Below are positions 25,312 through 41,181 of a stretch of DNA of 45,267 nt, one piece after another (the stretch's first letter is position 1; each line of letters starts with the position of its first letter). The notes under the pieces were generated by a model. The model saw only the letters and a list, made by a program, of their open reading frames with translations, did not search any database and was not told the origin of the DNA. Both the position numbers and the translations under genes were made by a program. The stretch is from positions 1 to 45,267 of IMG/VR virus record IMGVR_UViG_3300044837_000033; one strand, 5' to 3'. This stretch comes from a virus.

Positions 25312-25417
25312 CGTCGTGATGGCAGGTGCTGCGGCACTGCTCGCCGTCTGGGCGTTCATCGACAAGAACAAGCAGTATCAGGATCACAAGAAGGAGCTCG
25401 AGCATGAATCTGCCTGA
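25265..25417 (+). CDS. Small membrane protein, 50 aa
   Basis: GTG at 25265 with GGAGGGAAC in front, inside the previous gene. A short polar arm is followed by a membrane helix at about 17-34 (VVMAGAAALLAVWAFI) and a charged tail (DKNKQYQDHKKELEHE). It overlaps the next gene by 14 bases, suggesting a coupled set of three. Confidence 0.65.
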   Translation: MAFWNKGELRVATRNDVVMAGAAALLAVWAFIDKNKQYQDHKKELEHESA

Positions 25418-26204
25418 CGTTCGCGGAGTTGTCTCCGTGGGCAAAAGCTTTATCAAAGCGAATCGCCCGGAGATTCTTCTGGGCGCGAGTGTCGCTGCGA
25501 CCGCCCTCTCGGTGGTAAGTGCAGCAATCGGTGGGTACCGATCCGGCAAGCAGGTGGCTCTCAAGGAGGCCGAAACCGGCGAGGTTCTCACCAAGACCGA
25601 GATTGCTCAGGAGACTTGGCAGAACTACGTGGTTCCTGCCGGTACGACGGTTGCCGCTGTGGCATCGACGTTCGGTCTACATGTCGTCCACCTGCAGGAC
25701 AAGAAGGCCCTCGTAGCGACTGCCCTGGCCGCTGTCGAGGAAGTCCGTGAGACGGCTCGAGCTTACATCGAAGACCTGAACGAAGCTGTGGATGAGAACG
25801 CCACGGACAAGTCCAAAGAGAAGATCAAGGCCGCGCACTTGGAGAAGTCCGCTGCGCGTGGCAATGGGATTGTCAAGGGCATTGATCCGGCGTCCGGAGT
25901 CCTGTTCGAGCAGTATCTGGTGCGTGATGCCAAGTCCGGTCAGACGGTCTACGCCAATCAGCACGAGGTCGAAGAAGCTCTGCTCCGGTTGAACGAGGAG
26001 CTTCAGCAGGACGGCGAGGTGGGTCTGGAGACGTTCATGTCCGAACTCGGGTATGAGCCCTCGGACGACCAGGAGCGCTACGGCTGGTCCGGGGCGGAGA
26101 AGGTCCGTCTTCACTGGGAGACGACTAGAACGGGTGACGGACGTCCAGTCTGCGTGTTCTCCTTTGACCCCGCTCCGCGCGTGGGGTACGACAAAAGTAG
26201 ATGA
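25404..26204 (+). CDS. Membrane protein, DUF6353-like, paralogue of the 28368 gene
   Basis: 266 residues; ATG at 25404 behind AAGGAGCTCGAGC. Two hydrophobic segments at about 22-44 and 76-96 flank a KEAETGEVLTKTE helix; the C-terminal half is soluble with helices and a beta domain around MSELGYEPSDDQERYGW and VCVFSFDPAPRVGY. The gene at 28368 has the same order: two helices, a long charged helix, then DSLGFEESD and a beta end. Phages often carry this family near DNA-replication genes; its job is unknown. A further frame continues past its stop. Confidence 0.65.
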   Translation: MNLPDVRGVVSVGKSFIKANRPEILLGASVAATALSVVSAAIGGYRSGKQVALKEAETGEVLTKTEIAQETWQNYVVPAGTTVAAVASTFGLHVVHLQDKKALVATALAAVEEVRETARAYIEDLNEAVDENATDKSKEKIKAAHLEKSAARGNGIVKGIDPASGVLFEQYLVRDAKSGQTVYANQHEVEEALLRLNEELQQDGEVGLETFMSELGYEPSDDQERYGWSGAEKVRLHWETTRTGDGRPVCVFSFDPAPRVGYDKSR

Positions 26205-27162: not shown

Positions 27163-27747
27163 ATGTCTGACAACCTCGTCTACGAGGCCGCTGTCTACTC
27201 GCGCAAGATCACCTACAAGAACTTCAAGGGTGAGGAGAAGACGACCGAGGTCAGCTTCACGCTCGACCCGATTCAGCTCATGGCGGTCATGGCTGGGTAC
27301 AACCCGAAGAAGATCAAGAGCGGAAACCCGTCGCTCAATGGCAAGGACGCGGAACCCACTGATGCCGACCAGATCAAGATGGTTCGCAATCTCGCCATGC
27401 AGGCTGCGGGGACGCCAAGTGAGGACGGAGAGAGCTGGATTCCCTTCGAGGACTTCGGTGACACCATCGTCGGCAAGGCCTTCCTGACCAAGCTGGTGGC
27501 CTCTGACGCTGACCGTCGTGAGTTCGCCGACAAGGTGATCCTGGACCCGTTCCGGGCGTTCACTCGGTACTTCTCTTCCGACGCCTCGAACTCCGCCACG
27601 GAGATCAAGGAGATGCAGGTCATGCTCACTCAGATGGAGAAGGTGTTCGCCACGCCGAGCACCGAGAACGAGACCGCTGAGGAGCGCCGGGCCCGCCTGG
27701 AAGCCGAGATCGCATCTCTGAATGCCCTGTCGGCTGAGAACAAGTAA
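27163..27747 (+). CDS. Conserved-type phage protein, 194 aa
   Basis: ATG at 27163 after GAAAGG. It begins with a beta pattern (YSRKITYKNFKGEEKTTEVSF) and a long helix, and ends in a helical EERRARLEAEIASL segment. The N-terminus resembles small phage tail-chaperone-like proteins, but the locus is among membrane genes. C/G-ending codons suggest strong expression. It overlaps the next gene as TAATG. Confidence 0.6.
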   Translation: MSDNLVYEAAVYSRKITYKNFKGEEKTTEVSFTLDPIQLMAVMAGYNPKKIKSGNPSLNGKDAEPTDADQIKMVRNLAMQAAGTPSEDGESWIPFEDFGDTIVGKAFLTKLVASDADRREFADKVILDPFRAFTRYFSSDASNSATEIKEMQVMLTQMEKVFATPSTENETAEERRARLEAEIASLNALSAENK

Positions 27748-28358
27748 TGGCTGACTTCCCCAACAAGGCTGGGGGAGGTGGTCCATCTCTACCTAGCAAA
27801 CGACCCAAGCCCGCTCCTGTGGTGCAAGGGGCTAAGGCTAAGAAGTCGATTGGTTCGCGGCTTCGAAGTGCTCTCCTCACCGATAACCCCAAGGCCTTGG
27901 GATCCCAGATCGGTAAGGATATTCTCGTTCCTCGGCTCAAGCTAGGCGTTCAGGAAGCTCTTAACTCCCTGGTCGCTGGAATGCTGTGGGGGAACATTGG
28001 CCAGCAGTCCTCTCTCAGCCAGAGAGTTGCAGGCAACATGCTACGCAGCACTACGCCATATTCTCAGATCTCCAACCCGAACTCTATTACGCAAGCCCAA
28101 CAGGCGATCGTAAGGACGGGCGGGAACTATGAGAACGTGATCTGTCCGAATGAGTTCGATGCAGCAACATTGCTTGCTCGAGCTCAAGAGTATCTCGCTG
28201 AGTACAACGTAATGGCCGTGGGTGACTTGTACGAGATGGCCACACTACCAACGGGCGTCTCCGACGCTGCTTACGGCTGGCATTCAATTCAGGGTGCGCG
28301 GATTGTCCAGACCGTAGACGGCTGGGAACTCAAGCTGCCGCCACCCACTCTACTGTAG
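27747..28358 (+). CDS. Conserved-type phage protein, 203 aa
   Basis: ATG at 27747. Lys/Pro-rich disordered N-terminus (about 40 residues), a helical middle containing LKLGVQEALNSLVAGMLWG, and a compact C-terminal part ending AAYGWHSIQGARIVQTVDGW-ELKLPPP. The C-terminal pattern GW-x3-GA-x-V is one I associate with proteins that travel with DUF6353-like membrane genes in other Gram-positive siphophages. Role unknown. Confidence 0.6.
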   Translation: MADFPNKAGGGGPSLPSKRPKPAPVVQGAKAKKSIGSRLRSALLTDNPKALGSQIGKDILVPRLKLGVQEALNSLVAGMLWGNIGQQSSLSQRVAGNMLRSTTPYSQISNPNSITQAQQAIVRTGGNYENVICPNEFDAATLLARAQEYLAEYNVMAVGDLYEMATLPTGVSDAAYGWHSIQGARIVQTVDGWELKLPPPTLL

Positions 28359-28367
28359 GAGTACTAA

Positions 28368-29264
28368 ATGAGCAAAATTCGTGAGGCGTTGGGAGCGCTG
28401 AAACTAACTCTCAAGGAGAACTCTCCGACCATCCTCGTCATCGGCGGAGTGGTTGTCATGGGCACCGGGACGGTTATTGCGTGTAACCGTACGCTCAAGC
28501 TCAAGGCCACCATCGAGCCTCACGTCGAGGTACTCGAGGAGATCGCCGATCCCACCGGGCGATTTGAGAACAGCGCTGAGAACAAGCAGATCGCCATCTC
28601 CAAGGCGTCACTGGACGTGGCCAAGCTCTACTTCCTGCCCTTCGTGCTCTTCGTGAGTGGATCGGGCATGGTCTTCTGGGGCCACAACATCATGATCAAG
28701 CGCAACGCTACGTTGGCTGTTGCGTTCACGACCCTGAAGAAAACCTTCGATGCTTACCGAGCTCGAGTCATCGGAGCATCTGGGCATACTGCCGATCAGT
28801 ACTACATGAACGGCGATCGAACCGTCTCAGGAGAAGAGATCGGTGCAGATCCAACCAAGGACTACTCCTCTCGTGACTGGGAGGCCTCGGGCCGAGATCC
28901 CTACAATCGAGTCTTCGCTCAGCAAACTAGCGATGAATGGGAGAACGACCTTGGAGCCAACAAGTTCTTCATCGGATGCAAGCAAAAAGAAGCGCAACGT
29001 CTGCTCAATCGACGGGGTTACCTTTACCTGTCCGAGGTGTATGACTCCCTTGGATTCGAGGAAAGCGATATTTCAAGGGTCGTTGGTTGGCGAGTGTCCA
29101 CGCTGCCTGACGGTTCACGTGATATTCCAGTCGTCGACTTCGGTTTAGACAAGCCGCTTCCGGATGATTGGAAGTACAACAACAAGCGTGAGGTCTACCT
29201 GGACTTCAACTGCCAGGGACTGATCGTTGGCGGTAAGGTCCAGAAGATGTTGGAGAGCGCATGA
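28368..29264 (+). CDS. Membrane protein, DUF6353-like
   Basis: 298 residues; ATG at 28368 after GTAGGAG. Membrane helices at about 21-40 (PTILVIGGVVVMGTGTVIAC) and 86-105 (LYFLPFVLFVSGSGMVFWG) separated by a charged helix; then a long helix and a soluble C-terminal domain (YLYLSEVYDSLGFEESD, VVDFGLDKPLPDDWKYN). This looks like the DUF6353 family of phage membrane proteins. Shares layout with the 25404 gene. The stop overlaps the next ATG. Confidence 0.65.
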   Translation: MSKIREALGALKLTLKENSPTILVIGGVVVMGTGTVIACNRTLKLKATIEPHVEVLEEIADPTGRFENSAENKQIAISKASLDVAKLYFLPFVLFVSGSGMVFWGHNIMIKRNATLAVAFTTLKKTFDAYRARVIGASGHTADQYYMNGDRTVSGEEIGADPTKDYSSRDWEASGRDPYNRVFAQQTSDEWENDLGANKFFIGCKQKEAQRLLNRRGYLYLSEVYDSLGFEESDISRVVGWRVSTLPDGSRDIPVVDFGLDKPLPDDWKYNNKREVYLDFNCQGLIVGGKVQKMLESA

Positions 29265-29437
29265 GCTTCGAAATCATCCAGGTCCAGACAATGCCTGGAG
29301 GAAACATCAAAGCTCGGTGTACCAAGTGTGGAGATGAAGAATTTCTTTATCCAGCAATGATCTCTGATTCTTCGCCTGTGATGGGTGCTTCGATGCAGAT
29401 CAGTCATGTCTGTCGACTTCGGGACGGGATGCGATGA
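29261..29437 (+). CDS. Small zinc-ribbon-like protein, 58 aa
   Basis: ATG at 29261 in an ATGA overlap; stop overlaps the next gene in the same way. CTKCGDEEF at about residues 20-28 gives a C-x2-C knuckle, and HVC at 49-51 could complete a metal site. Rubredoxin-knuckle peptides of this size are frequent in phage early regions. Confidence 0.6.
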   Translation: MSFEIIQVQTMPGGNIKARCTKCGDEEFLYPAMISDSSPVMGASMQISHVCRLRDGMR

Positions 29438-29931
29438 GAAAAGCGCTGGGGTTCGCTCTGGCGTTTGTCTCTGGTACGTGCTTTGGCTGTGTGCTTGCTT
29501 GGGAGACTGCCAAGGGAGCAATCGAAAACGAGGTTAAACGTCAGACGGCTTCGTTGTTCCTGGCAGCTGACATGGTTGAGCCGGTCGAACCCTCAGAGGA
29601 CCGTTGGGTGCCTGAGGACGGCGTTGCCATTGCCGAGGCTGTCAACAGCACGAACTACCAGATAGACATCGCGCAACCGAACGACGGAATTCAGCATATT
29701 TCCGAGATCGAATACGAGCACGAAGACTCTTTCGACAAGTGCGTGGTTGAGATCTTCTTCAACGACGACATGCCCGTGTTCCTATTCAATAGCGTTCAGG
29801 TGGAGGATTGGTTCTCCCATCTGGGCGAGACAATCGTACTGACAGGAGATGAAACCAAAGACACCGAAACCTTTTACGTCCGCAACCACAACCTGCGAAC
29901 GGACTATGAGGTGACCTGGGGTCAGCCGTGA
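29434..29931 (+). CDS. Membrane-anchored soluble domain protein, 165 aa
   Basis: N-terminal membrane helix at about 4-24 (ALGFALAFVSGTCFGCVLAW), then a polar helix and an alpha/beta domain from about 80 onward (ISEIEYEHEDSFDKCVVEIF, FYVRNHNLRTDYEVTW). The C-terminal pattern is similar to phage proteins found with DUF6353-like genes. Three-gene overlap with neighbours implies one coupled operon. Confidence 0.6.
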   Translation: MRKALGFALAFVSGTCFGCVLAWETAKGAIENEVKRQTASLFLAADMVEPVEPSEDRWVPEDGVAIAEAVNSTNYQIDIAQPNDGIQHISEIEYEHEDSFDKCVVEIFFNDDMPVFLFNSVQVEDWFSHLGETIVLTGDETKDTETFYVRNHNLRTDYEVTWGQP

Positions 29932-30488
29932 TTACTCGCGAGGAGTTCATCAATCGATACTTCTCCAGGTTGATGGAACAGGCCTTCGCGACTAACACGG
30001 AGCGGGAGATGTATGAGGGCACTTGCGCTTTGCTTTTCGACATCCCCTTCTACTGGACGCATTCGAATCTAAACGATGAGAATCGTGCAGCAGACGCCGC
30101 GATCTACCGCAAGTACGAGCGTTTCGTGCTAGATCAGGAGAAGCACCGTATTGCTCCTGAGTGGCTGAACGCATGGGAGAGTGCCACGCCCAGCGTATTT
30201 GAGGTCATGATCGCAATCGCAGAGCGGTGGTCGGAGTTCTTTGAGCGCCCGATCGCATACTACTTCTCTCGTCACTTGTTTCGGAACTTGGGATTTCATC
30301 AATTCCGGGGTTCGCTACGTAGGACGGAAGAAGAGGCAGTTCGCTGGACCGTGGACCGGTGGATGTCTCGTCAAATTGAGCATAATGGCGAGGGTTCTCC
30401 GTTTCCGCTACAACATCATAATGTGGATATGCGAACGGCTGACATCTGGAATCAGATGAACGCGTATTCACATCAATATTTTCAGTGA
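29928..30488 (+). CDS. Conserved-type helical phage protein, 186 aa
   Basis: GTG at 29928 overlapping the previous stop. Patterns CALLFDIPFYWTHSNLNDENR near residues 33-53 and HHNVDMRTADIWNQMNAY near the end match a widespread but uncharacterised siphophage protein of this length, which occurs near replication genes. Helical, soluble, no catalytic motif seen. It is followed after 12 bases by the giant replication gene. Confidence 0.6.
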   Translation: MITREEFINRYFSRLMEQAFATNTEREMYEGTCALLFDIPFYWTHSNLNDENRAADAAIYRKYERFVLDQEKHRIAPEWLNAWESATPSVFEVMIAIAERWSEFFERPIAYYFSRHLFRNLGFHQFRGSLRRTEEEAVRWTVDRWMSRQIEHNGEGSPFPLQHHNVDMRTADIWNQMNAYSHQYFQ

Positions 30489-30500
30489 AGGGAGGCACCG

Positions 30501-33500
30501 TTGGACTTCATTCGTGTTGGCATCAAGGAAAACAAAGATGGCACGAGGGAGTTCTTCCCCTCGCTGCAGGTTCTTCGCTCAGAGGACCTGGTGATCAGAG
30601 GTGGATCGTTCGTCGCGATCTGGGACGAGGACGTCCAGCTCTACTCGAGGAAGATCTACGACGTCGCGGACATCATTGACCGTGCGTTTGCCCACATGAT
30701 TGCGGAAAAGGTTCGGCCCGGCGACTCCATCAAGAAGATGCGGTCGTTTGATAACACCTACTTCACGCGTTTCCTTTCCTACGTTCGTAGCATCGGAGAC
30801 ATGGGGCCGGACCTTGACCAAAGAATCATATTTGCCGACCAACATCCAACGAAGCAGGATGCGGCAACGTTCAAAATGGATTACAGCATGGGCGCAGGAT
30901 CTATCTCCGCCTGGGATGAGTTGCTTGGTGTGCTGTATTCCCAGCACGAACGTCTGAAGATTGAATGGGCCATTGGTTCAATCTTCTCTGGGGATGCGGC
31001 AACCGTAATCCAGAAGATGTACGTGTTCTACGGTCCCCCTGGGTCCGGCAAGTCAACGATCATGAACATCATTGAGCGGCTCTTCGAGGGACACACGGCT
31101 ATATTCTCGGCGTTCGAGATGGGCCGTAGGGATGCACAGTTCTCACTCGAGCCGTTCAAAGACAATCCCCTGGTGGCCATAGATCAAGATGGAGATATGT
31201 CCCGTCTTGAGGCGAACAAGAATCTGAACTCGATCGTGTCTCACGACCCGGTTCTGATCAACGCCAAGGGTAAGAACCTGTTCACGATCAAGCCCCGAGC
31301 TACTTTGTTCGTGGGGTCGAATGAGTCGGTGAGAATCAGCGACCGTAAATCCGGCCTGTTCCGCCGACTCGTTGACATCCAACCGACAGGACAGAGGATA
31401 TCCGAACGCAAATACCATCAGCTCATGAAGCAGGTGGAGTTTGAGCTCGGAGCAATTGCACATCACTGCCTGTCCACCTACAAGGTGCACGGTCCAACAT
31501 ATTTCTCCGAATACCGATCGGTTGAAATGATGTACAGAACCAACGACATCTTCAACTTCGTGGAAGACAACCGCCTGGTCTTGAGTAAAGGCATAGCACT
31601 CAAGCAGGCACATAAGATGTACATGAATTGGTGCGATGAGACTGACACAAAGGCAGTCTACAAACAGTACCGCTTCCGGGACTTGCTTCGAGACTACTTC
31701 GAGGAGTTCCAAGACCAGGTCATGATCGAGGGCCAGCGCTACAGGTCATATTTCTCGGTCCTGAAACCGCTGGAATCTTTTCAATGGGATCCGGAACGAG
31801 AAGAGTTGGTCTCCTGGTTGACATTGAAAGATGAGCTTCTTAAGCCTGGGCCCTTGACTGAAGCCTTGGCCGATTGCCCTGCTCAGTATCATTCTGCAGC
31901 GAACGATCGACCCATGCACAAGTGGGAGAACGTCACCACAACACTCAAAGATCTCAAGACAACGGCGCTTCACTATGTGAAAATTCCGTTGCAACACATC
32001 GTCATCGACTTCGACCTGAAGAACGAAAAGGGCGAGAAAGACCTATCCCTCAACCTCGCAGCTGCAGCGGGGTGGCCTCCTACCTACGCTGAGGTGAGTA
32101 AGAGTGGACAAGGGTTGCACCTGCATTACAACTACGTTGGCGACGTGCATCTCCTTGCGCCAAGCGTTAGCGAAGGCATCGAGATCAAAACCCTACTTGG
32201 TGACGCATCTTTGCGCAGGCGTTATACCAAGTCCAACGATCTACCTATCGCAACCCTCTCCGGAGGTCTGCCTCTAAGAGAGGAGCGAGCCGTGTTAAGT
32301 GCACAATCGTTCATGACTGAGAAGGGATTACGAGACCTCCTGGTTCGTACTCTTTCTCGTCAGATCCATGAACACACTAAACCCAGCATGGACTTCATCA
32401 AGAAGCAGTTGGACGACGCTCTTGCTCAGGGACTCGTATTCGACGTAACAGACATGTACGACGATGTGTTCTCCTTCGCAATGACTTCCTCCAACCAGCG
32501 TGATGTGTGCCTGGAAATCCTCTCCCAACTCAAGTTCCGTAGCGAAGAGGACGTACCAGCAGAGGTACCGCCCGAGACCCCGGTGGTATATTTCGACTGT
32601 GAGGTCTACCGGAATCTATTCGTAGTCTGTTGGATGTACGACCGGGATGATGCTGAACTTGTCGAAATGGTAAATCCCAGTCCTGCTGAAATCGAAGAAC
32701 TCTTCAAGTTCCGCTTGATCGGGTTCTACAACCGCAACTACGACAACCACATCTTGTGGGCCAGGAGTTTGGGGTACAGCAATGAGAAGCTTTATGAGCT
32801 TTCCCAAGCGATTACTTCGAACGATCGTAATGCGATGTTTGGGGCGGCGTATAACCTGCACTACGCAGACGTATACGATTATGCCTCAGAGAAGAAGTCT
32901 CTCAAGAAGTGGGAGATCGAACTGGGTCTACCCCACGTAGAGATCGACATTCCCTGGGACCAGGATGTTCCTGAGGAGCGAATTCATGATGTCGTGCGCT
33001 ACTGCTGCAACGACGTGATCGCGACTCGAGAGGTAGCCAAGGCCCGAGCAGGGGATTTCAACGCGCGTCGAATTCTGGCTGAGCTCTCCGGTCTGGAGAT
33101 CTGCAACACCACTCGCCAGCACACCGAGAAATTGATCTTCGGCGACGTGAAGGACACCAGCGATGAACTGGTTTATACAGACCTATCAAAAGAGTTTCCT
33201 GGATATGTCTTTGACAAGTTCAAGCCAAGAAAAGAGGCTTCTACTTATAAAGGTGAATCCGTCGGAGAAGGTGGGTACGTATACGCGGAACCAGGGATGT
33301 ATAAAGACGTTGTACTGCTTGACGTGGCATCCATGCACCCAACCTCCATCGTAGTCCTGAACGCCTTCGGCAAGTACACCTCAGTATTCAAGCAACTGCT
33401 CGACACCCGCCTGTTGATCAAGGATGGCAACCTGGCAGAGGCCGCTAAACTCTACGGGGGACGTCTGGCTGCATATCTCGGTGATCCCGAGGAAGCAGAG

Positions 33501-34241
33501 CAATTGTCCTATGCACTCAAGATCGTGATCAACACGGTTTATGGCCTTACTGCGGCCTCCTTCCCTAACCGCTTTAGGGACTCGAGGAACATTGACAACA
33601 TCGTCGCAAAGCGCGGGGCGTTGTTCATGGTCGACCTCAAGGAGTTTGTGCAGAACAAGGGCTTTACCGTCGCCCACATTAAGACCGACTCTATCAAGAT
33701 TCCTGGTGCAACCCCTGAACTTATCCAAGAAGTCACACTTTTTGGTGAGAAGTACGGCTACACCTTTGAGCATGAGGCGACATATTCGCGCTTCTGTCTG
33801 GTGAACGACGCAGTTTATGTAGCCAAGTACGCCTGGGCGCAGAAGGAAAAGAAGATCGGCACGTGGGAAACGACGGGGGCCCAGTTCCAGCACCCAGTGG
33901 TCCGCAAGCGGTTGTTCACGGGCGAAGTAGAGGAGTCAAGTGACTACGTCGAAGCAAAGCAGGTATCCAAAGGAGCAATGTACCTTGTTGCTAGCGATGA
34001 AAGTAGGAGTTTCATCGGACGGTTTGGAGCGTTTGTGCCTGTCCTGCATGGAAGAGCTCTCATGCGTGTGGATGGAGACAAGGCCCATGCTGTCACTGGT
34101 ACCAAAGGATACCTCTGGGAGTCAGCTGACGCTGCCTTTGGAATGGGACTGACCGTCGATCAGTCATATTTCGAGGCACTCGTGGTCAACGCAATCGAGA
34201 CCATCAACAACTTCGGCAGCTTTGAAGAATTCGTCGCTTAG
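30501..34241 (+). CDS. Fused replication protein: SF3 helicase, AEP-type primase and family B DNA polymerase
   Basis: 1246 residues; TTG at 30501 after AAGGGAGG. SF3 helicase: GPPGSGKST at 178-186, acidic Walker B AIDQDGD at 226-232, sensor FVGSNES and arginine finger FRRL near 275-295. Primase: VIDFDLK (Asp503, Asp505), SGQGLHLHY (His540, His542), and a third acidic motif at Glu561. Polymerase: proofreading exonuclease FDCE (Asp699, Glu701), NYDNH (Asp748), YCCND (Asp838); motif A DVASMHP (Asp941), motif B KIVINTVYG (Lys1007), motif C KTDS (Asp1063), where Lys replaces the first Asp of the usual DTDS. Together it could unwind, prime, extend and proofread DNA. Confidence 0.85.
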   Translation: MDFIRVGIKENKDGTREFFPSLQVLRSEDLVIRGGSFVAIWDEDVQLYSRKIYDVADIIDRAFAHMIAEKVRPGDSIKKMRSFDNTYFTRFLSYVRSIGDMGPDLDQRIIFADQHPTKQDAATFKMDYSMGAGSISAWDELLGVLYSQHERLKIEWAIGSIFSGDAATVIQKMYVFYGPPGSGKSTIMNIIERLFEGHTAIFSAFEMGRRDAQFSLEPFKDNPLVAIDQDGDMSRLEANKNLNSIVSHDPVLINAKGKNLFTIKPRATLFVGSNESVRISDRKSGLFRRLVDIQPTGQRISERKYHQLMKQVEFELGAIAHHCLSTYKVHGPTYFSEYRSVEMMYRTNDIFNFVEDNRLVLSKGIALKQAHKMYMNWCDETDTKAVYKQYRFRDLLRDYFEEFQDQVMIEGQRYRSYFSVLKPLESFQWDPEREELVSWLTLKDELLKPGPLTEALADCPAQYHSAANDRPMHKWENVTTTLKDLKTTALHYVKIPLQHIVIDFDLKNEKGEKDLSLNLAAAAGWPPTYAEVSKSGQGLHLHYNYVGDVHLLAPSVSEGIEIKTLLGDASLRRRYTKSNDLPIATLSGGLPLREERAVLSAQSFMTEKGLRDLLVRTLSRQIHEHTKPSMDFIKKQLDDALAQGLVFDVTDMYDDVFSFAMTSSNQRDVCLEILSQLKFRSEEDVPAEVPPETPVVYFDCEVYRNLFVVCWMYDRDDAELVEMVNPSPAEIEELFKFRLIGFYNRNYDNHILWARSLGYSNEKLYELSQAITSNDRNAMFGAAYNLHYADVYDYASEKKSLKKWEIELGLPHVEIDIPWDQDVPEERIHDVVRYCCNDVIATREVAKARAGDFNARRILAELSGLEICNTTRQHTEKLIFGDVKDTSDELVYTDLSKEFPGYVFDKFKPRKEASTYKGESVGEGGYVYAEPGMYKDVVLLDVASMHPTSIVVLNAFGKYTSVFKQLLDTRLLIKDGNLAEAAKLYGGRLAAYLGDPEEAEQLSYALKIVINTVYGLTAASFPNRFRDSRNIDNIVAKRGALFMVDLKEFVQNKGFTVAHIKTDSIKIPGATPELIQEVTLFGEKYGYTFEHEATYSRFCLVNDAVYVAKYAWAQKEKKIGTWETTGAQFQHPVVRKRLFTGEVEESSDYVEAKQVSKGAMYLVASDESRSFIGRFGAFVPVLHGRALMRVDGDKAHAVTGTKGYLWESADAAFGMGLTVDQSYFEALVVNAIETINNFGSFEEFVA

Positions 34242-34246
34242 GAAAT

Positions 34247-34275
34247 ACATGTCTTAAGATGACAGATTCATCAAC
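34247..34275 (+). promoter_or_regulatory. ACATGTC / TAAGAT element after the replication gene
   Basis: ACATGTC (34247-34253) and -10-like TAAGAT (34255-34260) match the repeated element; GATGA (34258-34262) and TCATC (34268-34272) form a short inverted repeat just downstream. Confidence 0.5.
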
Positions 34276-34298
34276 CAAGCCCGAAAGGAGCTTCGTCA

Positions 34299-34553
34299 AT
34301 GAGCACTTACACCAACTTCGAGAAGACCACTCACAACGAAGACGGCACGATCACGACCGAGATCATGTACACGGAGCACCCGCCCACCAAGAAGGACCAA
34401 GTTATCGCTTGGACCGTCTTCGGGGGTATTTGCCTCGTGTCCGTGGCCCCGCTCATCATGGTCGGCCTGGACGAAGTGAAGTACCGCCGCGAAGAGCGTC
34501 GTAAGCGCAAGGCTGACGCAAAGTTCATCAAGGACATGCAAGAGAAGATCTAG
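34299..34553 (+). CDS. Single-span membrane protein, 84 aa
   Basis: ATG at 34299 after GAAAGGAG. A polar Thr/Glu-rich arm is followed by a membrane helix at about 34-55 (VIAWTVFGGICLVSVAPLIM) and a strongly basic tail (KYRREERRKRKADAK). C/G-ending codons. An upstream ATG at 34259 reads another frame and lacks a binding site. Confidence 0.7.
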   Translation: MSTYTNFEKTTHNEDGTITTEIMYTEHPPTKKDQVIAWTVFGGICLVSVAPLIMVGLDEVKYRREERRKRKADAKFIKDMQEKI

Positions 34554-34563
34554 TCGAGGCTAC

Positions 34564-34584
34564 GGGCCCCTTAAACAAGGGCCC
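34564..34584 (+). terminator. Strong GC hairpin, possible terminator
   Basis: GGGCC-CTT pairs with AAG-GGCCC around an AAAC loop (one bulge). Only a weak T-rich tail (TCTTGTCT) follows, so termination may be partial. Confidence 0.55.
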
Positions 34585-34625
34585 ACAGTCTTGTCTACCC
34601 CCAAATTTCCCGGGAGGGGAAATCC

Positions 34626-35120
34626 ATGTCAGAGTCAACCCCAGAGCCCGATCCCGAAGACGCCTTGGTCGAAGCGCGACGCAGGGAAGCTGAACTTCTG
34701 CAAGCACAGATGATCGCAGAGCAGATCGCCAAGAACTCACCGGAAGAGGTCGCCGCGGCGGCCGAAAAAGAGCGTCTTCGACAAGTTGATGCAGTTACGG
34801 GACTCGCTATCTGCCGAATGGTGGAGTACCGATCCCGCACAGGCAACTACAGTGTTCCTGCAGTTGTTAATTGTACAACAGATTCTATCTACCAACCTGG
34901 AGTCGAGGCCGGTCACGTGCCTGCGCTCACCTCTGTTGACCGAGTCCACCTCACTGTGTTCACGCCCGGTTTGCCGGGTATGCGTGGAGATGCTGATAAC
35001 TTCGTTGTCGCCTCCGAACAGCCCGTGAGCGAGAACGTGGCTGGCACCTACCAGGAATGGAATATCCCGTATGACCCCGATGGCGGCCCTGGGACCTGGA
35101 AGTGGCCTACGAGAGCGTGA
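34626..35120 (+). CDS. Hypothetical protein with N-terminal helix and beta domain, 164 aa
   Basis: ATG at 34626 after GGGAGGGG. Residues 10-60 are a charged Glu/Ala helix; the rest is a beta-rich domain (YSVPAVVNCTTDSIYQPGVE, VHLTVFTPGLPGMRG, AGTYQEWNIPYDPDGG-type end) with Pro/Gly loops. No membrane segment and no recognised family. Confidence 0.6.
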   Translation: MSESTPEPDPEDALVEARRREAELLQAQMIAEQIAKNSPEEVAAAAEKERLRQVDAVTGLAICRMVEYRSRTGNYSVPAVVNCTTDSIYQPGVEAGHVPALTSVDRVHLTVFTPGLPGMRGDADNFVVASEQPVSENVAGTYQEWNIPYDPDGGPGTWKWPTRA

Positions 35121-35129
35121 GGGGTGAAA

Positions 35130-35390
35130 ATGACTGAGTGGCACACGATCGGGGGGAGCGCCTTGTACGCGGAGAAGGTGTTCCCCAATCGCAAGGTGGG
35201 CCACGTATCAGCAACCACCCGAACCCTGTGGCGATGCAGTCTAGATGGCGTCCCATGCGGCTCAGCCTTTACTCGTGAAGACGCGCAGGCACTGGTCGAA
35301 TACGAGTACGAGATGCGATACGAAAGGGAGAACAATGGAGTTCTGGATCGTAGTCATCGCGGTGTGTTTCCTCGTGGCGATTCTCGTTAA
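35130..35390 (+). CDS. Small soluble protein, 86 aa
   Basis: The ATG at 35130 lies at good spacing behind GTGAGGGG; a GTG at 35124 is also in frame. Contains WRCSLDGVPCGSAFTREDA, resembling a short alpha/beta fold, then a Glu/Tyr-rich helix. Its last 56 bases overlap a tiny membrane gene. Function unknown. Confidence 0.55.
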   Translation: MTEWHTIGGSALYAEKVFPNRKVGHVSATTRTLWRCSLDGVPCGSAFTREDAQALVEYEYEMRYERENNGVLDRSHRGVFPRGDSR

Positions 35391-35403
35391 GCGGTATTTC
35401 TGA
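35335..35403 (+). CDS. Single-helix membrane micropeptide, 22 aa
   Basis: ATG at 35335 after AAAGGGAGAAC. The 22 residues (MEFWIVVIAVCFLVAILVKR then YF) form nothing but one membrane helix with a basic end. Its TGA overlaps the next gene's ATG (TGATG), so it sits in a coupled chain. The hydrophobic pattern together with the binding site makes chance unlikely. Confidence 0.6.
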   Translation: MEFWIVVIAVCFLVAILVKRYF

Positions 35404-35702
35404 TGGTGGACGAAAACATCCCGTCGATCCCCGCTCTTCAGCCTCGACTCAAGGCCCGACTTATGGTGGCAGATTTCACCAAGCGCCACTTCGAGTACGA
35501 CCTGGACCCCGACAAGGATATTTACGTCGTGTGGTTCTGCAAGACGCTTCAAAACTGGAAGGCGCTGTTGAGCACTAATATGCCTGACGGTAACTACTAC
35601 GAGGTGACTTACAATGGCGATCAAGGCGTTGCCTACCTCGACCAGTACAAGAAGATCGTCAATCAGGACTACCCCGACGAGTGGTTCGGAATGAGGCTCT
35701 GA
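35403..35702 (+). CDS. DUF6275-like protein, 99 aa
   Basis: ATG at 35403 in a TGATG overlap. The central sequence IYVVWFCKTLQNWKALLST and GNYYEVTYNGDQ followed by YLDQYKKI is the conserved core of a small phage family I recall as DUF6275, found in many Gram-positive siphophages. Predicted alpha/beta, soluble. Function unknown. It ends in TGATG, coupled to the CAP-domain gene. Confidence 0.65.
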   Translation: MVDENIPSIPALQPRLKARLMVADFTKRHFEYDLDPDKDIYVVWFCKTLQNWKALLSTNMPDGNYYEVTYNGDQGVAYLDQYKKIVNQDYPDEWFGMRL

Positions 35703-36091
35703 TGGCAGTCCTCGCCAAGACCATCAGGCGCCTGGTCAATGAGGAGCGCCACAGAAATGGCCTGCCTGGCCTGAAGGCGTCCAAGAAGCTGAACATATCT
35801 GCTCGAGCCAAAGCAGCGGATATGGTCAAGTACAACTACTTCTCCCACGGTACACCCCACGGCTCCTGGTACGCGTTTCTGTACAAGTACGCAGGTAAGT
35901 CCTGGAACACCATCGGAGAGAACATCGCTCGAGGACAGGACACCGCCTCGCAGGTGATGAAAGCGTGGATGGACTCGCCAGAACACCGAGCCAACATCCT
36001 AAACGTTCACTACAAGGTCCTAGGGATTGGATTTGCTCGTGGCGGAGAGCATGGAGACACAGAGTACTGGGTCCAACACTTCGGAGGTTGA
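35702..36091 (+). CDS. CAP-domain (SCP/PR-1-like) protein
   Basis: 129 residues; ATG at 35702. The order VNEERHRNGLPGLKASKKL, AKAADMVKYNYFSHGTPHG, IGENIARGQDTASQVMKAW, then SPEHRANILNVHYKVLGIGF and WVQHFG is the full CAP fold of bacterial YkwD-type proteins, with His and Glu of the central cavity retained. No signal peptide is present, so it acts in the cytoplasm, in the virion or after lysis. CAP domains are rarely seen in phages; a role at the host envelope is possible. Confidence 0.75.
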   Translation: MAVLAKTIRRLVNEERHRNGLPGLKASKKLNISARAKAADMVKYNYFSHGTPHGSWYAFLYKYAGKSWNTIGENIARGQDTASQVMKAWMDSPEHRANILNVHYKVLGIGFARGGEHGDTEYWVQHFGG

Positions 36092-36257
36092 GGAGTTTCT
36101 TCCTCGCAGAGCCACCGACGAGCACAACTGGCCGAGCGTGGGACATCTGTATTCCGGCTGGCATACGGCCACCGGGCTTCCCAAGGCGACCCAGTATCGG
36201 GTGTGTATCCACCCCTCGTGTACCCACGTCGAATACAGGGATGTCCCGAATGTCTGA
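36051..36257 (+). CDS. Small protein with Cys/His pair, 68 aa
   Basis: ATG at 36051 after GGCGGAGAG, within the end of the CAP gene. It contains VCIHPSCTHVEYRDV, a C-x4-C-x-H arrangement that could bind a metal, and a Trp/His-rich middle (NWPSVGHLYSGWHT). The stop overlaps the next gene by eight bases. Confidence 0.5.
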   Translation: METQSTGSNTSEVEEFLPRRATDEHNWPSVGHLYSGWHTATGLPKATQYRVCIHPSCTHVEYRDVPNV

Positions 36258-36546
36258 CAACGGCATCGAGATCCGCAAGCTGAACGACACCATGAAGGAG
36301 ATCAACAAAACCCTCAACCGTCAGAATTCCCTACTCGAGAAGATGCTGAGGTTCCAAGTTCTTGACTACGAAGAAGGCCAGGCGAGCCGCCGTCGCCGAG
36401 AAGAGGGAGCGGTTCCTAGCACAGGAGAAGGAGATTGGCCTGCAGGCTCTCCAAGCCGACAAGGCCAGCCGAGCCTACAACCGGGAGCACCCGTTGAGCC
36501 CGGACAGCCCGAAGCGCCAAAAGGGTACCAGATCTTCGGGGAGTAA
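36250..36546 (+). CDS. Small coiled-coil protein, frame-shifted or overlapping
   Basis: ATG at 36250. The first 36 codons (IRKLNDTMKEINKTLNRQNS, a helix) show good C/G third positions. Past about 36358 this frame becomes Pro/Gly/Arg-rich with poor third positions, whereas the +1 frame (36362-36550) encodes a regular charged helix with strongly C/G-ending codons. The two may be one protein joined by a +1 frameshift, or two overlapping genes. Confidence 0.45.
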   Translation: MSDNGIEIRKLNDTMKEINKTLNRQNSLLEKMLRFQVLDYEEGQASRRRREEGAVPSTGEGDWPAGSPSRQGQPSLQPGAPVEPGQPEAPKGYQIFGE

Positions 36547-36550
36547 GTAG
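36362..36550 (+). CDS. Charged helical protein in the +1 frame, 62 aa
   Basis: Frame opens at TTG 36362 after an in-frame stop at 36347; GAGG lies 12 bases upstream. The sequence (KKARRAAVAEKRERFLAQEK, then ALQADKASRAYNREHPL) is a long basic helix and has better coding statistics by eye than the overlapping frame of the 36250 gene. Start or frameshift undecided. Confidence 0.45.
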   Translation: MTTKKARRAAVAEKRERFLAQEKEIGLQALQADKASRAYNREHPLSPDSPKRQKGTRSSGSK

Positions 36551-36562
36551 CTACAAAGGGGA

Positions 36563-36594
36563 CCTAGCCCGGGGTATAAGAAAGGCTTAGGTTT
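36563..36594 (+). terminator. Terminator-like hairpin
   Basis: CCTAGCC (36563-36569) pairs with GGCTTAGG (36584-36591) with one bulge, followed by TTTAAA. Confidence 0.6.
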
Positions 36595-36656
36595 AAACGA
36601 CAGCGACGGATTGAGTAGATTCATCTATCCCCACGTGACTGCGCCCCGCACTAAAA

Positions 36657-36685
36657 ACATGCCTTACAGTAGGAAACTACTAAGG
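36657..36685 (+). promoter_or_regulatory. Promoter-like / SD-pairing cassette
   Basis: ACATGCC (36657-36663), -10-like TACAGT (36665-36670), and an inverted repeat CTTA-c-AGTA (36663-36671) / TACTAAG (36678-36684) whose right arm runs into AAGGAGG of the next gene. Confidence 0.55.
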
Positions 36686-36692
36686 AGGAACC

Positions 36693-36923
36693 ATGTCACG
36701 TAAGCACGCAATGCTCGCAGTCATCGTCACTGCGGTTGCTACGGAGCGACTCGCCAACCTCGGCTACAAAGAAATTCTGAAGAAGGTTGAGGCTATCTAC
36801 AAAGATGGCCTGGACCAGTCCTTCGGGAAAGGCTTTGACGCCGGGTGGGAGAGCGCCCTGGAGAACCGCTACGCCGTATCGAATGCGTACATGCGCAACG
36901 CACGAATCATGGAAATGAACTAG
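36693..36923 (+). CDS. Small protein, 76 aa
   Basis: ATG at 36693 after TAAGGAGG. A short hydrophobic N-terminus (MLAVIVTAVATERLANLGY) followed by a helix and SFGKGFDAGWESALENR, where a Gly/Phe repeat FGKGFDAGWE resembles the GY/F-x-x-G patterns of peripheral membrane proteins. Stands alone between a promoter-like cassette and a terminator. Confidence 0.6.
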   Translation: MSRKHAMLAVIVTAVATERLANLGYKEILKKVEAIYKDGLDQSFGKGFDAGWESALENRYAVSNAYMRNARIMEMN

Positions 36924-36933
36924 TACCACCAAA

Positions 36934-36964
36934 GCCTAGGCCCCCACAAGGGGCTAAGGTTTTA
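36934..36964 (+). terminator. Intrinsic terminator
   Basis: CCT-AG-GCCCC pairs with GGGGC-TA-AGG around CACAA, followed by TTTT, whose last bases begin the next ACATGCC cassette. Confidence 0.8.
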
Positions 36965-36992
36965 CATGCCTTAGTATAGGAAACTACTAAGG
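36964..36992 (+). promoter_or_regulatory. Promoter-like / SD-pairing cassette
   Basis: ACATGCC (36964-36970), -10-like TAGTAT (36972-36977), perfect 8-bp inverted repeat CCTTAGTA (36969-36976) / TACTAAGG (36985-36992); the right arm contains the ribosome binding site AAGGAG. Confidence 0.6.
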
Positions 36993-36999
36993 AGATTTG

Positions 37000-37251
37000 A
37001 TGACCCACATCGCTATCGCCCTGAACTACGCAAACCTCAAACTTGTAAAGTCGCTGGTTAAGACCATCATCGAATTCGATATCTACACCCCGAATCCCCT
37101 CGCATCAATGCATGAAGCAAATGTTGCAGAGTGGATCGCCGTGATTGATCTCGAGTCGCCGAGTCTTATCCTCGTCTACTACAAGGACTTTGAGGAGCAC
37201 TACGAAGGCCGATACTCATCTGGAGTATTCAGCAAAGTCACCCCTAAGTAA
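37000..37251 (+). CDS. Small soluble protein, 83 aa
   Basis: ATG at 37000, seven bases after AAGGAG; a TTG three bases earlier is also in frame. Alpha/beta sequence (VKSLVKTIIEFDIYTPN, WIAVIDLESPSLILVYYKDF) without membrane helix or cysteine. Unrecognised. It is monocistronic between cassette and terminator. Confidence 0.6.
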   Translation: MTHIAIALNYANLKLVKSLVKTIIEFDIYTPNPLASMHEANVAEWIAVIDLESPSLILVYYKDFEEHYEGRYSSGVFSKVTPK

Positions 37252-37256
37252 CCAAG

Positions 37257-37284
37257 CCTAGCCCCCACAAGGGGCATAGGTTTT
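37257..37284 (+). terminator. Intrinsic terminator
   Basis: CCTA-GCCCC (37257-37265) pairs with GGGGC-a-TAGG (37271-37280), followed by TTTT that merges with the next ACATGCC. Confidence 0.85.
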
Positions 37285-37322
37285 ACATGCCTTATATTGA
37301 GAACATAACTTCAATAGAAAGG
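37285..37322 (+). promoter_or_regulatory. Promoter-like / SD-pairing cassette
   Basis: ACATGCC (37285-37291), -10-like TATATT (37293-37298), inverted repeats TATTGA (37295-37300) / TCAATA (37311-37316) and CCTT (37290-37293) / AAGG (37319-37322, the ribosome binding site). Confidence 0.6.
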
Positions 37323-37323
37323 T

Positions 37324-37476
37324 ATGACAATGGCATTCGTCGTAATCATCCTTGCACTCGCGCTGACCCTGGTCGCATTCCTCTACGGACATTCCGTTGG
37401 GGTTGGCGACAAGATGATGTCGCTTCGCAAGATGCCCGCGCCGCCTGCAAACGTCTGGACCGTTGAGAAGAAGTAA
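37324..37476 (+). CDS. Single-span membrane peptide, 50 aa
   Basis: ATG at 37324 (an ATG at 37330 is better spaced from AAAGG and gives 48 residues). Membrane helix at about 3-22 (AFVVIILALALTLVAFLYG), then a Lys/Met/Pro-containing tail ending VWTVEKK. Its own terminator follows. Confidence 0.65.
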   Translation: MTMAFVVIILALALTLVAFLYGHSVGVGDKMMSLRKMPAPPANVWTVEKK

Positions 37477-37485
37477 ACTCAAAAG

Positions 37486-37512
37486 CCTATGCCCACAAAG
37501 GGTGTAGGTTTT
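37486..37512 (+). terminator. Intrinsic terminator
   Basis: CCTA-t-GCCC pairs with GGG-t-GTAGG around ACAAA, followed by TTTT and the next cassette. Confidence 0.8.
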
Positions 37513-37544
37513 ACATGTCCTATAGTAGGAACCTACTCATAGGA
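37513..37544 (+). promoter_or_regulatory. Promoter-like / SD-pairing cassette
   Basis: ACATGTCC (37513-37520), -10-like TATAGT (37521-37526), inverted repeats TCCTAT (37518-37523) / ATAGGA (37539-37544) and GTAGG (37525-37529) / CCTAC (37532-37536); ATAGGAG is also the ribosome binding site. Confidence 0.65.
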
Positions 37545-37550
37545 GAAGTA

Positions 37551-37658
37551 ATGAAGAAGTATCGTTTTCGAAGCTTCCTGCTTGACGCCATCCTCGTCTG
37601 CCTCACCGGCGGACTCTGGCTCATCTGGATCTTCGTTCGCGAAATGCGTCGTCGCTAA
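37551..37658 (+). CDS. Single-span membrane micropeptide, 35 aa
   Basis: ATG at 37551 after ATAGGAG. Basic N-terminus (KKYRFRS), helix FLLDAILVCLTGGLWLIWIF and a basic end (REMRRR). The LTGGLWLIW pattern is one commonly seen in tiny phage and bacterial membrane proteins. Too short for a database-style call. Confidence 0.65.
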   Translation: MKKYRFRSFLLDAILVCLTGGLWLIWIFVREMRRR

Positions 37659-37673
37659 TCATGAGAGTTTAAA

Positions 37674-37703
37674 GCCTATATTCCGCAAGGAGTATGGGTT
37701 TTT
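37674..37703 (+). terminator. Intrinsic terminator
   Basis: CCTATA-TTCC pairs imperfectly with GGA-gTATGGG around GCAA, then TTTTTT merging with ACATGCC. Confidence 0.8.
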
Positions 37704-37704
37704 T

Positions 37705-37742
37705 ACATGCCTTATAGTGAGAACTATTCCCACAACTAAGGA
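37705..37742 (+). promoter_or_regulatory. Promoter-like / SD-pairing cassette
   Basis: ACATGCC (37705-37711), -10-like TATAGT (37713-37718), GAGAAC; weaker inverted repeat CTTA (37711-37714) / TAAG (37737-37740) with inner GTG/CAC. The right arm leads into TAAGGAG. Confidence 0.55.
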
Positions 37743-37748
37743 GTCCCA

Positions 37749-37871
37749 ATGCAGACTTTTGTCCTCGCCATGTTCATCATGATGTTCGCCACCTTCGCCG
37801 GTGCGATCTACATGACACGCTGGGCGACCAAGAAGACCACACGAGGAATTCGTAAGCTTGTACGTCGATAG
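37749..37871 (+). CDS. Single-span membrane micropeptide, 40 aa
   Basis: ATG at 37749 after TAAGGAG. Helix at residues 3-22 (TFVLAMFIMMFATFAGAIYM), then a basic tail (TKKTTRGIRKLVRR). Followed directly by a terminator. Confidence 0.65.
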   Translation: MQTFVLAMFIMMFATFAGAIYMTRWATKKTTRGIRKLVRR

Positions 37872-37876
37872 TCCTA

Positions 37877-37910
37877 AAGATTCTGATCCCACACGGGGTC
37901 AGGGTCTTGT
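37877..37910 (+). terminator. Intrinsic terminator overlapping the next leader
   Basis: AAGA-TCTGA-CCC pairs with GGG-TCAG-TCTT around ACAC; the downstream GTGGAGG is the binding site of the next gene, with no promoter-like box in between. Confidence 0.65.
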
Positions 37911-37919
37911 GGAGGGTCG

Positions 37920-38045
37920 ATGAGTTGCAACATTGTGAACTGCAACAATCTCGAAGCAATCCAAGCTTTATTTGAAGAGAACCAGCGCTTACAACAAGTG
38001 ATCGCGGGGCTCGCTCATGCAATCATCGAGTTGGACGCAAAATGA
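37920..38045 (+). CDS. Small helical protein, 41 aa
   Basis: ATG at 37920 after GTGGAGG. Two cysteines at the N-terminus (MSCNIVNCNN) and a leucine-patterned amphipathic helix (ALFEENQRLQQVIAGLAHAI). The end overlaps the next ATG as ATGA. Confidence 0.55.
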   Translation: MSCNIVNCNNLEAIQALFEENQRLQQVIAGLAHAIIELDAK

Positions 38046-38242
38046 CATTCAAGTGCATCCAGCACAACAGAATCATATTCTTCGTGGATGACTTGATCTT
38101 TCATATGAACAAGACTCCATGTTGGTCCAGGCTAATCTCAACACCCTACGAGAATGAGGATCCAAATGTCGAAGAAGAAGGTAACGATGATCGTCCTGCT
38201 GGTGGCCTTCCTGGGCTTCATCGCGGCAGTGATCAAGGCTGA
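38042..38242 (+). CDS. Small hypothetical protein, 66 aa
   Basis: ATG at 38042 in an ATGA overlap. N-terminal part FKCIQHNRIIFFVDDLIFHM has alternating hydrophobics; the C-terminal third is low-complexity and overlaps a better-supported micropeptide in another frame. Its true extent is uncertain. Confidence 0.4.
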   Translation: MTFKCIQHNRIIFFVDDLIFHMNKTPCWSRLISTPYENEDPNVEEEGNDDRPAGGLPGLHRGSDQG

Positions 38243-38267
38243 CAAGCTCGAGCTTCCTGGGAAGTGA
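38166..38267 (+). CDS. Single-span membrane micropeptide, 33 aa
   Basis: ATG at 38166 with GAGGATCC upstream. Basic start (MSKKK), helix VTMIVLLVAFLGFIAAVI, short charged tail. It overlaps the 3' part of the previous gene. C/G-ending codons support it. Confidence 0.6.
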   Translation: MSKKKVTMIVLLVAFLGFIAAVIKADKLELPGK

Positions 38268-38611
38268 CCCCTCTCTGCTTGGATTGTCCAGACCATGAAG
38301 CATGTATGACGAATTGGCCGTGTCACATCGTAAAGGCCCTCGACAAGGAAAACATGCTTCTTAATGGACACACTACCAAAAGGAGGAACGCAATGGCATT
38401 TGACTTTCGCCAGTCTTGGGAAAACATCAAGCGCGAAATCGAAGACCGACCTGTTGTAGTCATGGGTGTGCTGGGAACCGTCTTGTACGGAGCCAGTCAC
38501 ATCATGGACTCCAACACCCGTCGCGTCAACGCCAAAACGCAACGCAAGTACCAGAAGGACTGGGAACGAGAAGTCGCTCGCCGTGAGCGTAAAGCCGAAC
38601 GTAAGAAGTGA
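38264..38611 (+). CDS. Cys-rich N-terminus joined to a membrane protein, with internal start
   Basis: GTG at 38264 overlapping the previous TGA opens a 115-residue frame. Residues 5-20 (CLDCPDHEACMTNWPC) form a C-x2-C-x5-C-x5-C cluster. At 38393 an in-frame ATG follows AAAAGGAGG and would give a separate 72-residue protein with a short membrane helix (VVVMGVLGTVLYGASHI) and a very basic tail (REVARRERKAERKK). Whether both forms are made is undecided. Confidence 0.55.
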   Translation: MTPLCLDCPDHEACMTNWPCHIVKALDKENMLLNGHTTKRRNAMAFDFRQSWENIKREIEDRPVVVMGVLGTVLYGASHIMDSNTRRVNAKTQRKYQKDWEREVARRERKAERKK

Positions 38612-38619
38612 CCAAGAAG

Positions 38620-38648
38620 CCAAGATTCCTACATGGAGTCTTGGTTTT
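38620..38648 (+). terminator. Intrinsic terminator
   Basis: CCAAGA-TTCC pairs with GGAG-TCTTGG around TACAT, followed by TTTT. The next gene's GAAGGAG follows at once. Confidence 0.8.
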
Positions 38649-38661
38649 GTGAAGGAGAGAG

Positions 38662-39207
38662 ATGGCATTCGAACCGCTAGATACCCTAGTCACATATCAC
38701 CAGGGCTACGGTAACAAACCCGGCAACATCACCCTCGAGGGGTGCCGCTTCTACGGGCGTCCCAACTTCCAGGGCGAGCTGAGAGATCATGGTTCCTGGC
38801 AGGAGGACAAGCGTAACTTCACGGTGCTCATTCCGAATGAGGAAGCAGACCGGATGAGGGACCTGCGCTGGCCTGTGAAGACGAACGTTCCAACGGATGA
38901 TGAGAAAGCTCAGGGTCGTGAGCCGTTGTCCTACCTCAAGTCCAGCGTCTTCTTCAGTGTCGACAAGAACCCGCACCAGCCCCTCGAGGAGCAGCGATAC
39001 CCCGATATTTGGGTGATCCAGGGCGATGATCGGGAGAAGCTGACCTTCCGTACGGTGGGTCTGATGGACACGGCACGCTTCGACATGATCGACATGGAGT
39101 TGCGTCTGTGGGAGTACAAGCCCGATCAGTGGTCTGCAACACTGGTCACTCTGGTCGCTGTGATGCGCACTTCCAGGCTTTCAGAGAAGTACGGCCGTCT
39201 GCTCTGA
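38662..39207 (+). CDS. Probable single-stranded DNA-binding (OB-fold-like) protein
   Basis: 181 residues; ATG at 38662 after GAAGGAGAGAG. It has DKRNFTVLIPNEEADRMRDL, RWPVKTNVPTDDEKAQ, then KLTFRTVGLMDTARFDMID and MELRLWEYKPDQWSATL (motifs separated), matching phage proteins of similar length that I associate with an SSB-like OB fold. Codon use suggests high expression, as expected for an SSB. Assignment rests on pattern memory, so it is tentative. Confidence 0.5.
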   Translation: MAFEPLDTLVTYHQGYGNKPGNITLEGCRFYGRPNFQGELRDHGSWQEDKRNFTVLIPNEEADRMRDLRWPVKTNVPTDDEKAQGREPLSYLKSSVFFSVDKNPHQPLEEQRYPDIWVIQGDDREKLTFRTVGLMDTARFDMIDMELRLWEYKPDQWSATLVTLVAVMRTSRLSEKYGRLL

Positions 39208-39217
39208 GGCAGGGAAA

Positions 39218-39257
39218 ACATACCTTTAGATGGAGTTCTAACCCTTCTATCTAAAGG
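39218..39257 (+). promoter_or_regulatory. Promoter-like / SD-pairing cassette
   Basis: ACATACC (39218-39224), -10-like TTAGAT (39226-39231), perfect 9-bp inverted repeat CCTTTAGAT (39223-39231) / ATCTAAAGG (39249-39257); the right arm includes the binding site AAAGGAG. Confidence 0.65.
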
Positions 39258-39265
39258 AGAAAGCA

Positions 39266-39361
39266 ATGAAGTTAGATAAGGAATGGGCGTCGATCATGAA
39301 GGTTTTCGGCATCCTATTCGTCATATTTCTCGTTGGATTGACCCTAAAACGAGACCGGTAG
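39266..39361 (+). CDS. Single-span membrane micropeptide, 31 aa
   Basis: ATG at 39266 after AAAGGAG. Short charged N-terminus, helix IMKVFGILFVIFLVGLTL, basic end (KRDR). Flanked by a cassette and a terminator as a one-gene unit. Confidence 0.65.
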   Translation: MKLDKEWASIMKVFGILFVIFLVGLTLKRDR

Positions 39362-39373
39362 AACTCCGGGAGA

Positions 39374-39402
39374 CCCTAAATCCACACGGGTTTAGGGTTT
39401 TT
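39374..39402 (+). terminator. Intrinsic terminator
   Basis: CCCTAAA-TCC pairs with GGG-TTTAGGG around ACAC, followed by TTTTT; one of the strongest in the window. Confidence 0.9.
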
Positions 39403-39475
39403 CAAAATGGAGCTCCCCGTTTTTAAAAATGTGTAATGAGTATCAACTGTCACAACAGTCTCTTTTGTCAATCTG

Positions 39476-39518
39476 GCCACTCTAGTTCATGATCATCTTT
39501 TACCTTTACTGGAGTGGC
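39476..39518. repeat. Inverted repeat
   Basis: GCCACTCTAGT (39476-39486) and ACTGGAGTGGC (39508-39518) pair over 11 positions with one G-T wobble, with a 21-base loop containing TGATCA. It is not followed by a T run, so a protein or origin site is more likely than a terminator. Confidence 0.65.
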
Positions 39519-39598
39519 TGGATGATAGTTATGGGACTGATGTGGTCGCATTTCACGGAAATTTGTGGGGAGTTCCCGGGGGACTTGAGAAGAATGTG

Positions 39599-39630
39599 CA
39601 GGGGTCACACATATTCTGACCTGCGGTTTT
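39599..39630 (+). terminator. Terminator-like hairpin in the gap
   Basis: GCAGG..TCA (39599-39608) pairs with TGACCTGC (39617-39624) with two unpaired Gs, followed by GGTTTT. Confidence 0.5.
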
Positions 39631-39670
39631 ACTTGGGATTACACGTTTCCTCTCTCTTTCTTCATTAAAA

Positions 39671-39694
39671 GTAGTAGTAGTAGTAGTAGTAGTA
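39671..39694. repeat. Trinucleotide repeat (GTA)8
   Basis: Eight perfect GTA units in a row, inside the AT-rich gap. Such microsatellites are rare in phage DNA and could mark an iteron-like or slippage-prone site. Confidence 0.9.
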
Positions 39695-39762
39695 TAGAGA
39701 TATACAAAATACATGGCGAAATAAAATCGTTTTTTCGTGCGTTTTTGTGCACATGATGATTT

Positions 39763-39794
39763 ACATGCCTTAGAGTGAGATCCCAACCCTAAGG
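39763..39794 (+). promoter_or_regulatory. Promoter-like / SD-pairing cassette
   Basis: ACATGCC (39763-39769), -10-like TAGAGT (39771-39776), inverted repeat CCTTAG (39768-39773) / CTAAGG (39789-39794) with inner GT/AC; the right arm is part of CTAAGGAG. Confidence 0.6.
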
Positions 39795-39800
39795 AGCCCC

Positions 39801-39962: not shown

Positions 39963-39970
39963 TCTCAAGT

Positions 39971-39997: not shown

Positions 39998-40010
39998 AGG
40001 AGGTGATCAC

Positions 40011-41177: not shown

Positions 41178-41181
41178 CAAA

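Follow-up and report, generated by a model that had tools for sequence, protein, structure and literature searches.

Can one phage gene supply a helicase, a primase and a proofreading DNA polymerase in a single chain, and would its product be a new kind of replicase? The window, the whole 45,267-base stretch of DNA analysed here, encodes a terminase, portal, head maturation protease, tail tape measure and tail genes, and thus belongs to a long-tailed phage. Megablast of window positions 28001-45000 against phage records gave no match. Two neighbouring genes (12466-13344 and 13887-14687, plus strand) both match the major tail protein family phrog_2645. The locus of interest was singled out in a preliminary description, which had read one uninterrupted 1246-residue frame with motifs of all three activities. 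Taken together, sequence comparison, structure models and analogy with a characterised relative indicate that this gene very probably encodes the main replicase of the phage, a HelPrimPolB protein.

The frame is open for 1246 codons from a TTG start, with no internal stop, and in coordinates, start and continuity it stands as first described (Table 1). Among the tblastn matches listed, most relatives have an annotated start that aligns with residue 1, and purine-rich sites comparable to the GGGAGG found here precede the annotated start in most annotated relatives.

Table 1. Features of the predicted replicase gene and its surroundings (window positions).
Feature	Position	Strand	Basis or remark
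phrog_4079 protein	27747-28358	+	Upstream; relatives in 124/173 loci
DUF6353 protein	28368-29264	+	Upstream; relatives in 139/173 loci
165-aa protein	29434-29931	+	Upstream of replicase
phrog_4678 protein	29928-30488	+	Just upstream; relatives in 139/173 loci
Shine-Dalgarno-like GGGAGG	30490-30495	+	5 bases 5′ of TTG start; from sequence
Predicted HelPrimPolB-type multifunctional replicase, 1246 aa, TTG start	30501-34241	+	Frame, PHROG and tblastn matches, alignment
SF3 helicase with flanking helical parts, residues 50-424	30648-31772	+	Pfam DUF5906, profile and fold matches
Walker A GPPGSGKST, residues 178-186, K184 (GP55 K189)	31032-31058	+	167/167 in alignment; GP55 alignment
Walker B acid, Asp230	31188-31190	+	D in 165, E in 2 of 167 aligned
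AEP (PriS-like) primase, residues 445-593; D503/D505, H540/H542, E561	31833-32279	+	Model, fold matches, PHROGs
Four-helix domain, residues 607-676, counterpart of GP55 aHD	32319-32528	+	Four helices in model; alignment
Family B DNA polymerase with 3′-5′ exonuclease, residues 683-1243	32547-34229	+	Foldseek, profile and fold matches
Exonuclease motifs: Exo I D699/E701, Exo II D748, Exo III Y834/D838	32595-33014	+	Invariant in 167/167
Polymerase motifs: A D941, B K1007/N1011/YG1014-1015, C KTDS 1061-1064	33321-33689	+	167-sequence alignment
phrog_4291 'RNA-dependent RNA polymerase', 931 aa	42171-44966	+	DFDGD motif; helix-turn-helix matches at both ends

Modules and catalytic residues of the predicted replicase

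The preliminary description had placed an SF3 helicase at the N terminus, an archaeo-eukaryotic primase (AEP) in the middle and a proofreading family B polymerase (PolB) at the C terminus, and each of the three assignments is borne out by fold. A lack of SF3 or AEP matches in the N-terminal and middle segments had been named as a ground for refutation, and both segments do match these folds. For the helicase, the N-terminal part matches Pfam DUF5906 at 3.3e-14, and its profile matches 7ola (the SaPI5 primase-helicase) and 6k9c (NrS-1). The AlphaFold2 model of this part finds 7ola as its best fold match (Z 22.4 over 320 residues), followed by the helicase parts of poxvirus D5/E5 and of the asfarvirus PrimPol. 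The SF3 set of residues is present (K184, D230, sensor N274 and arginine finger R288/R289).

The primase model (residues 432-700) has a mean pLDDT of 90.5, and the top ten structures found with it by Foldseek are without exception primase-polymerases of NrS-1 or pRN1 (E 5e-05 to 6e-04). The best of them is the NrS-1 primase-polymerase (E 5.2e-05), to which VIA-align superimposes the model with a Z of 9.7. Searching PDB sequences with a profile of the middle domain turned up no primase, so the AEP assignment rests on the fold matches and on PHROG primase families, of which phrog_3022 is matched by 56 of 61 replicase members and phrog_695 by 51. Behind the AEP, and before PolB, the model and the alignment place a predicted four-helix domain where the aHD of GP55, a replicase of lactococcal phage 1706, sits; F647 and F659 of the window protein align with Y655 and F667 of GP55.

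The PolB model matches 4k8x (9N polymerase) in Foldseek at E 2.9e-17 and PolB folds at Z 14-17, and the corresponding profile matches E. coli Pol II (3k57) at E 3.4e-08. D941, N1011, Y1014, G1015 and the KTDS of motif C are invariant in an alignment of 167 full-length relatives, and K1007 is kept in 165. The modelling does not fix how the domains are arranged relative to one another (pTM 0.53).

Fourteen residues had been proposed as catalytic or motif positions. Eleven of these (K184, D503, D505, H540, E561, D699, E701, D748, D838, D941 and D1063) are identical in 167/167 sequences, and H542 and K1007 in 165/167. The exception is Asp228, listed as one of the SF3 helicase motif residues: this position is mostly glutamine (Q in 146, D in 13, E in 8 of the 167), and the conserved Walker B acid is D230.

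Kinship with GP55 and other known replicases

A helicase, primase and polymerase in this order had been thought to lack a well-described precedent. That statement is out of date, because the HelPrimPolB group was named in a 2020 survey of B-family polymerases, its domain organisation having been shown earlier still (PMC7544198), and GP55 was purified in 2025 and found to have helicase, RNA-primase, polymerase and 3′-5′ exonuclease activities (PMC12205980). In the window protein, SF3 helicase, PrimPol (AEP) and PolB lie in one chain with PolB C-terminal, as in HelPrimPolB, and by its sequence and predicted folds it is one more member of this group, not a new kind of replicase.

GP55 primes at CCAAC with GTP, unwinds with UTP or dTTP, forms dimers, hands primers over in trans, and alone copies single-stranded M13 DNA de novo; its authors count more than 1000 homologues (PMC12205980). 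End-to-end alignment with the window protein gives 36.8% identity over 1221 positions. The two proteins share the domain order, the four-helix domain between primase and polymerase, the KTDS motif and the tested catalytic residues, such that K189, D509, D712, E714 and D949, mutated in GP55, correspond to K184, D505, D699, E701 and D941 here. GP55 differs in its length (1317 versus 1246 aa), in its phage lineage and in carrying Tyr655 where the window protein has phenylalanine. Mutation of Y655 abolished priming (PMC12205980), and Phe647 may mark a point of difference between the two enzymes; phenylalanine also occupies this position in 12 other relatives of the 167 aligned.

Related in part are the NrS-1 primase-polymerase-helicase and pRN1 ORF904, which share the AEP catalytic fold (and, in the C-terminal region of NrS-1, the SF3 fold) but carry the AEP before the helicase and no PolB, whereas the window protein has its helicase at the N terminus and a PolB. 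The GP55 aHD is reported to be unrelated to the helix-bundle domain of NrS-1 and ORF904 (PMC12205980).

From what was observed for the window protein, namely an intact frame, three folds, conserved catalytic residues and kinship with GP55, we infer by analogy that it works as GP55 does. The AEP and the four-helix domain would lay a short RNA primer on a single-stranded template, and the C-terminal PolB, using the exonuclease that it carries, would both extend and proofread it. Unwinding of the duplex ahead, and with it strand displacement, would fall to the SF3 domain at the N terminus, which probably also mediates dimerisation; the replicase is probably dimeric. By the same analogy, 'a near-complete replisome in one chain', as the protein was first called, is a fair description. 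With no more than 26% identity between the two helicase parts, the nucleotide preference of GP55 cannot be carried over.

An alternative is a replicase in which the primase or the helicase, as the likeliest modules, has lost its activity and now serves only in structure or DNA binding, with host DnaG or DnaB filling in. Identity to GP55 is lowest in the helicase and N-terminal parts (20-26%), compared with 46% in the AEP, 42% in the exonuclease and 44% in the polymerase; the neighbourhood of Walker B is variable; and GP55 minus its helicase still carries out de novo synthesis on M13 (PMC12205980). However, the Walker A lysine, the sensor asparagine and both arginines are invariant across the replicase family (167 aligned) and the AEP motif residues checked are kept, His542 included in all but two of 167, which makes such decay unlikely.

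More improbable still is that PolB itself starts synthesis in the manner of a piPolB, with the AEP as an accessory. Motif C reads KTDS instead of DTDS in 167/167 sequences, so that the usual first aspartate of DTD is absent throughout (the group's motif C is described as divergent, its letters not being given in the text; PMC7544198), and primer-independent PolBs exist in some self-replicating elements (cited in PMC12205980). GP55, which also has KTDS, nevertheless loses de novo synthesis when its primase domain is not functional (PMC12205980), and we regard self-priming by the PolB of the window protein as very unlikely.

Relatives, gene neighbourhood and a co-occurring RNA polymerase

The family phrog_4210 matches residues 1-1245 of the replicase (E = 0), and tblastn matched 365 phage records, 252 of them covering 80% or more of its length. 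A scan of viral contigs with the single protein gave no match, and alignment-based scans were needed, which yielded 80 viral loci and 80 bacterial-genome loci. The helicase-primase-PolB order, for which homologues were to be sought, is present in one frame in 166 of 173 related loci. The phrog_4210 match, the 252 tblastn matches and these 166 loci rule out both chance and an assembly join, and with the latter the two-gene join that had been named as a possible refutation. That separate genes for a primase-helicase and a polymerase were fused by an assembly or sequencing artefact is hardly conceivable, as the 166 loci show the same unbroken order in phages, metagenomes and bacterial genomes that are independent of one another, the other seven are five fragments cut by contig ends, one insertion (L169) and one frame break (L173), and GP55 is made as a single 1317-aa chain (PMC12205980).

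In L169, an insertion of about 1.15 kb (8710-9850) splits the polymerase part of the gene; by eye, its frames look like anti-repressor-type and HNH-type proteins. A split gene was also considered for the Streptomyces phages GirlPower and CherryBlossom, each matched by tblastn in two pieces, but GirlPower has one intact 1333-aa gene.

Across the 167 relatives, pairwise correlations of domain distances are 0.70-0.89, values reached in none of 200 permutations, so the replicase modules have travelled together. The nearest relatives (L015, a viral contig, and L095, L016 and L017) are 59-64% identical; among bacterial genomes the closest match, at 62%, is L095, whose contig was binned as Candidatus Dependentiae. 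Phages named for Gordonia, Arthrobacter, Streptomyces, Rhodococcus and Curtobacterium encode full-length phrog_4210 matches, annotated 'DNA polymerase' or 'DNA primase/polymerase', with 47-52% identity over the whole chain; their loci also include a relative of the gene that directly precedes the replicase. These proteins differ in being known from sequence only, mostly as primase/polymerase and usually with the helicase part unnamed.

Downstream of the replicase lie genes for an SF2-type helicase, a VRR-nuclease-like protein and an exonuclease (phrog_3953), all three with relatives in phage 1706, together with a gene whose 931-aa product is related to single-chain RNA polymerases. Because of the short flanks at the related loci, any count for these downstream genes is a lower bound. 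Upstream, the DUF6353 protein, a few genes 5′ of the replicase, and the product of 25326-26204 (plus strand) both belong to phrog_2152, and for a nearby gene the annotation of phage ReqiPoco6 gives a membrane protein. After the replication genes, a stretch of about 2 kb (36550-38660) has few long plus-strand frames.

The phrog_4291 protein is possibly a YonO-like single-chain RNA polymerase, and a full-length relative of it occurs in 245 phage records. Compared as full-length counts per genus, in which related phages are not independent, replicase and RNA polymerase are equally frequent in Arthrobacter (95), Gordonia (55), Streptomyces (54), Lactococcus (13), Siphovirus (12), Curtobacterium (7), Rhodococcus (4) and Microbacterium (4) phages. 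This co-occurrence is the basis for a tentative and rather doubtful proposal that the two enzymes would act together as a self-contained replication-transcription module, for example with the RNA polymerase supplying origin transcripts.

CCAAC, the priming site of GP55, occurs 132 times in the window against 87.7 expected from dinucleotide shuffles. It ranks 91st of 1024 5-mers and its count equals the expectation of a third-order model; the excess is therefore no evidence for priming sites, and was dropped as a sign of them.

The family has one characterised enzyme, and the window protein enlarges it by a diverged member, kin to soil and oral phages; the comparison across 167 relatives tells fixed from variable residues. 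Its main use would be comparative, in asking whether unwinding with UTP or dTTP and priming at CCAAC, as found for GP55, are traits of the family.
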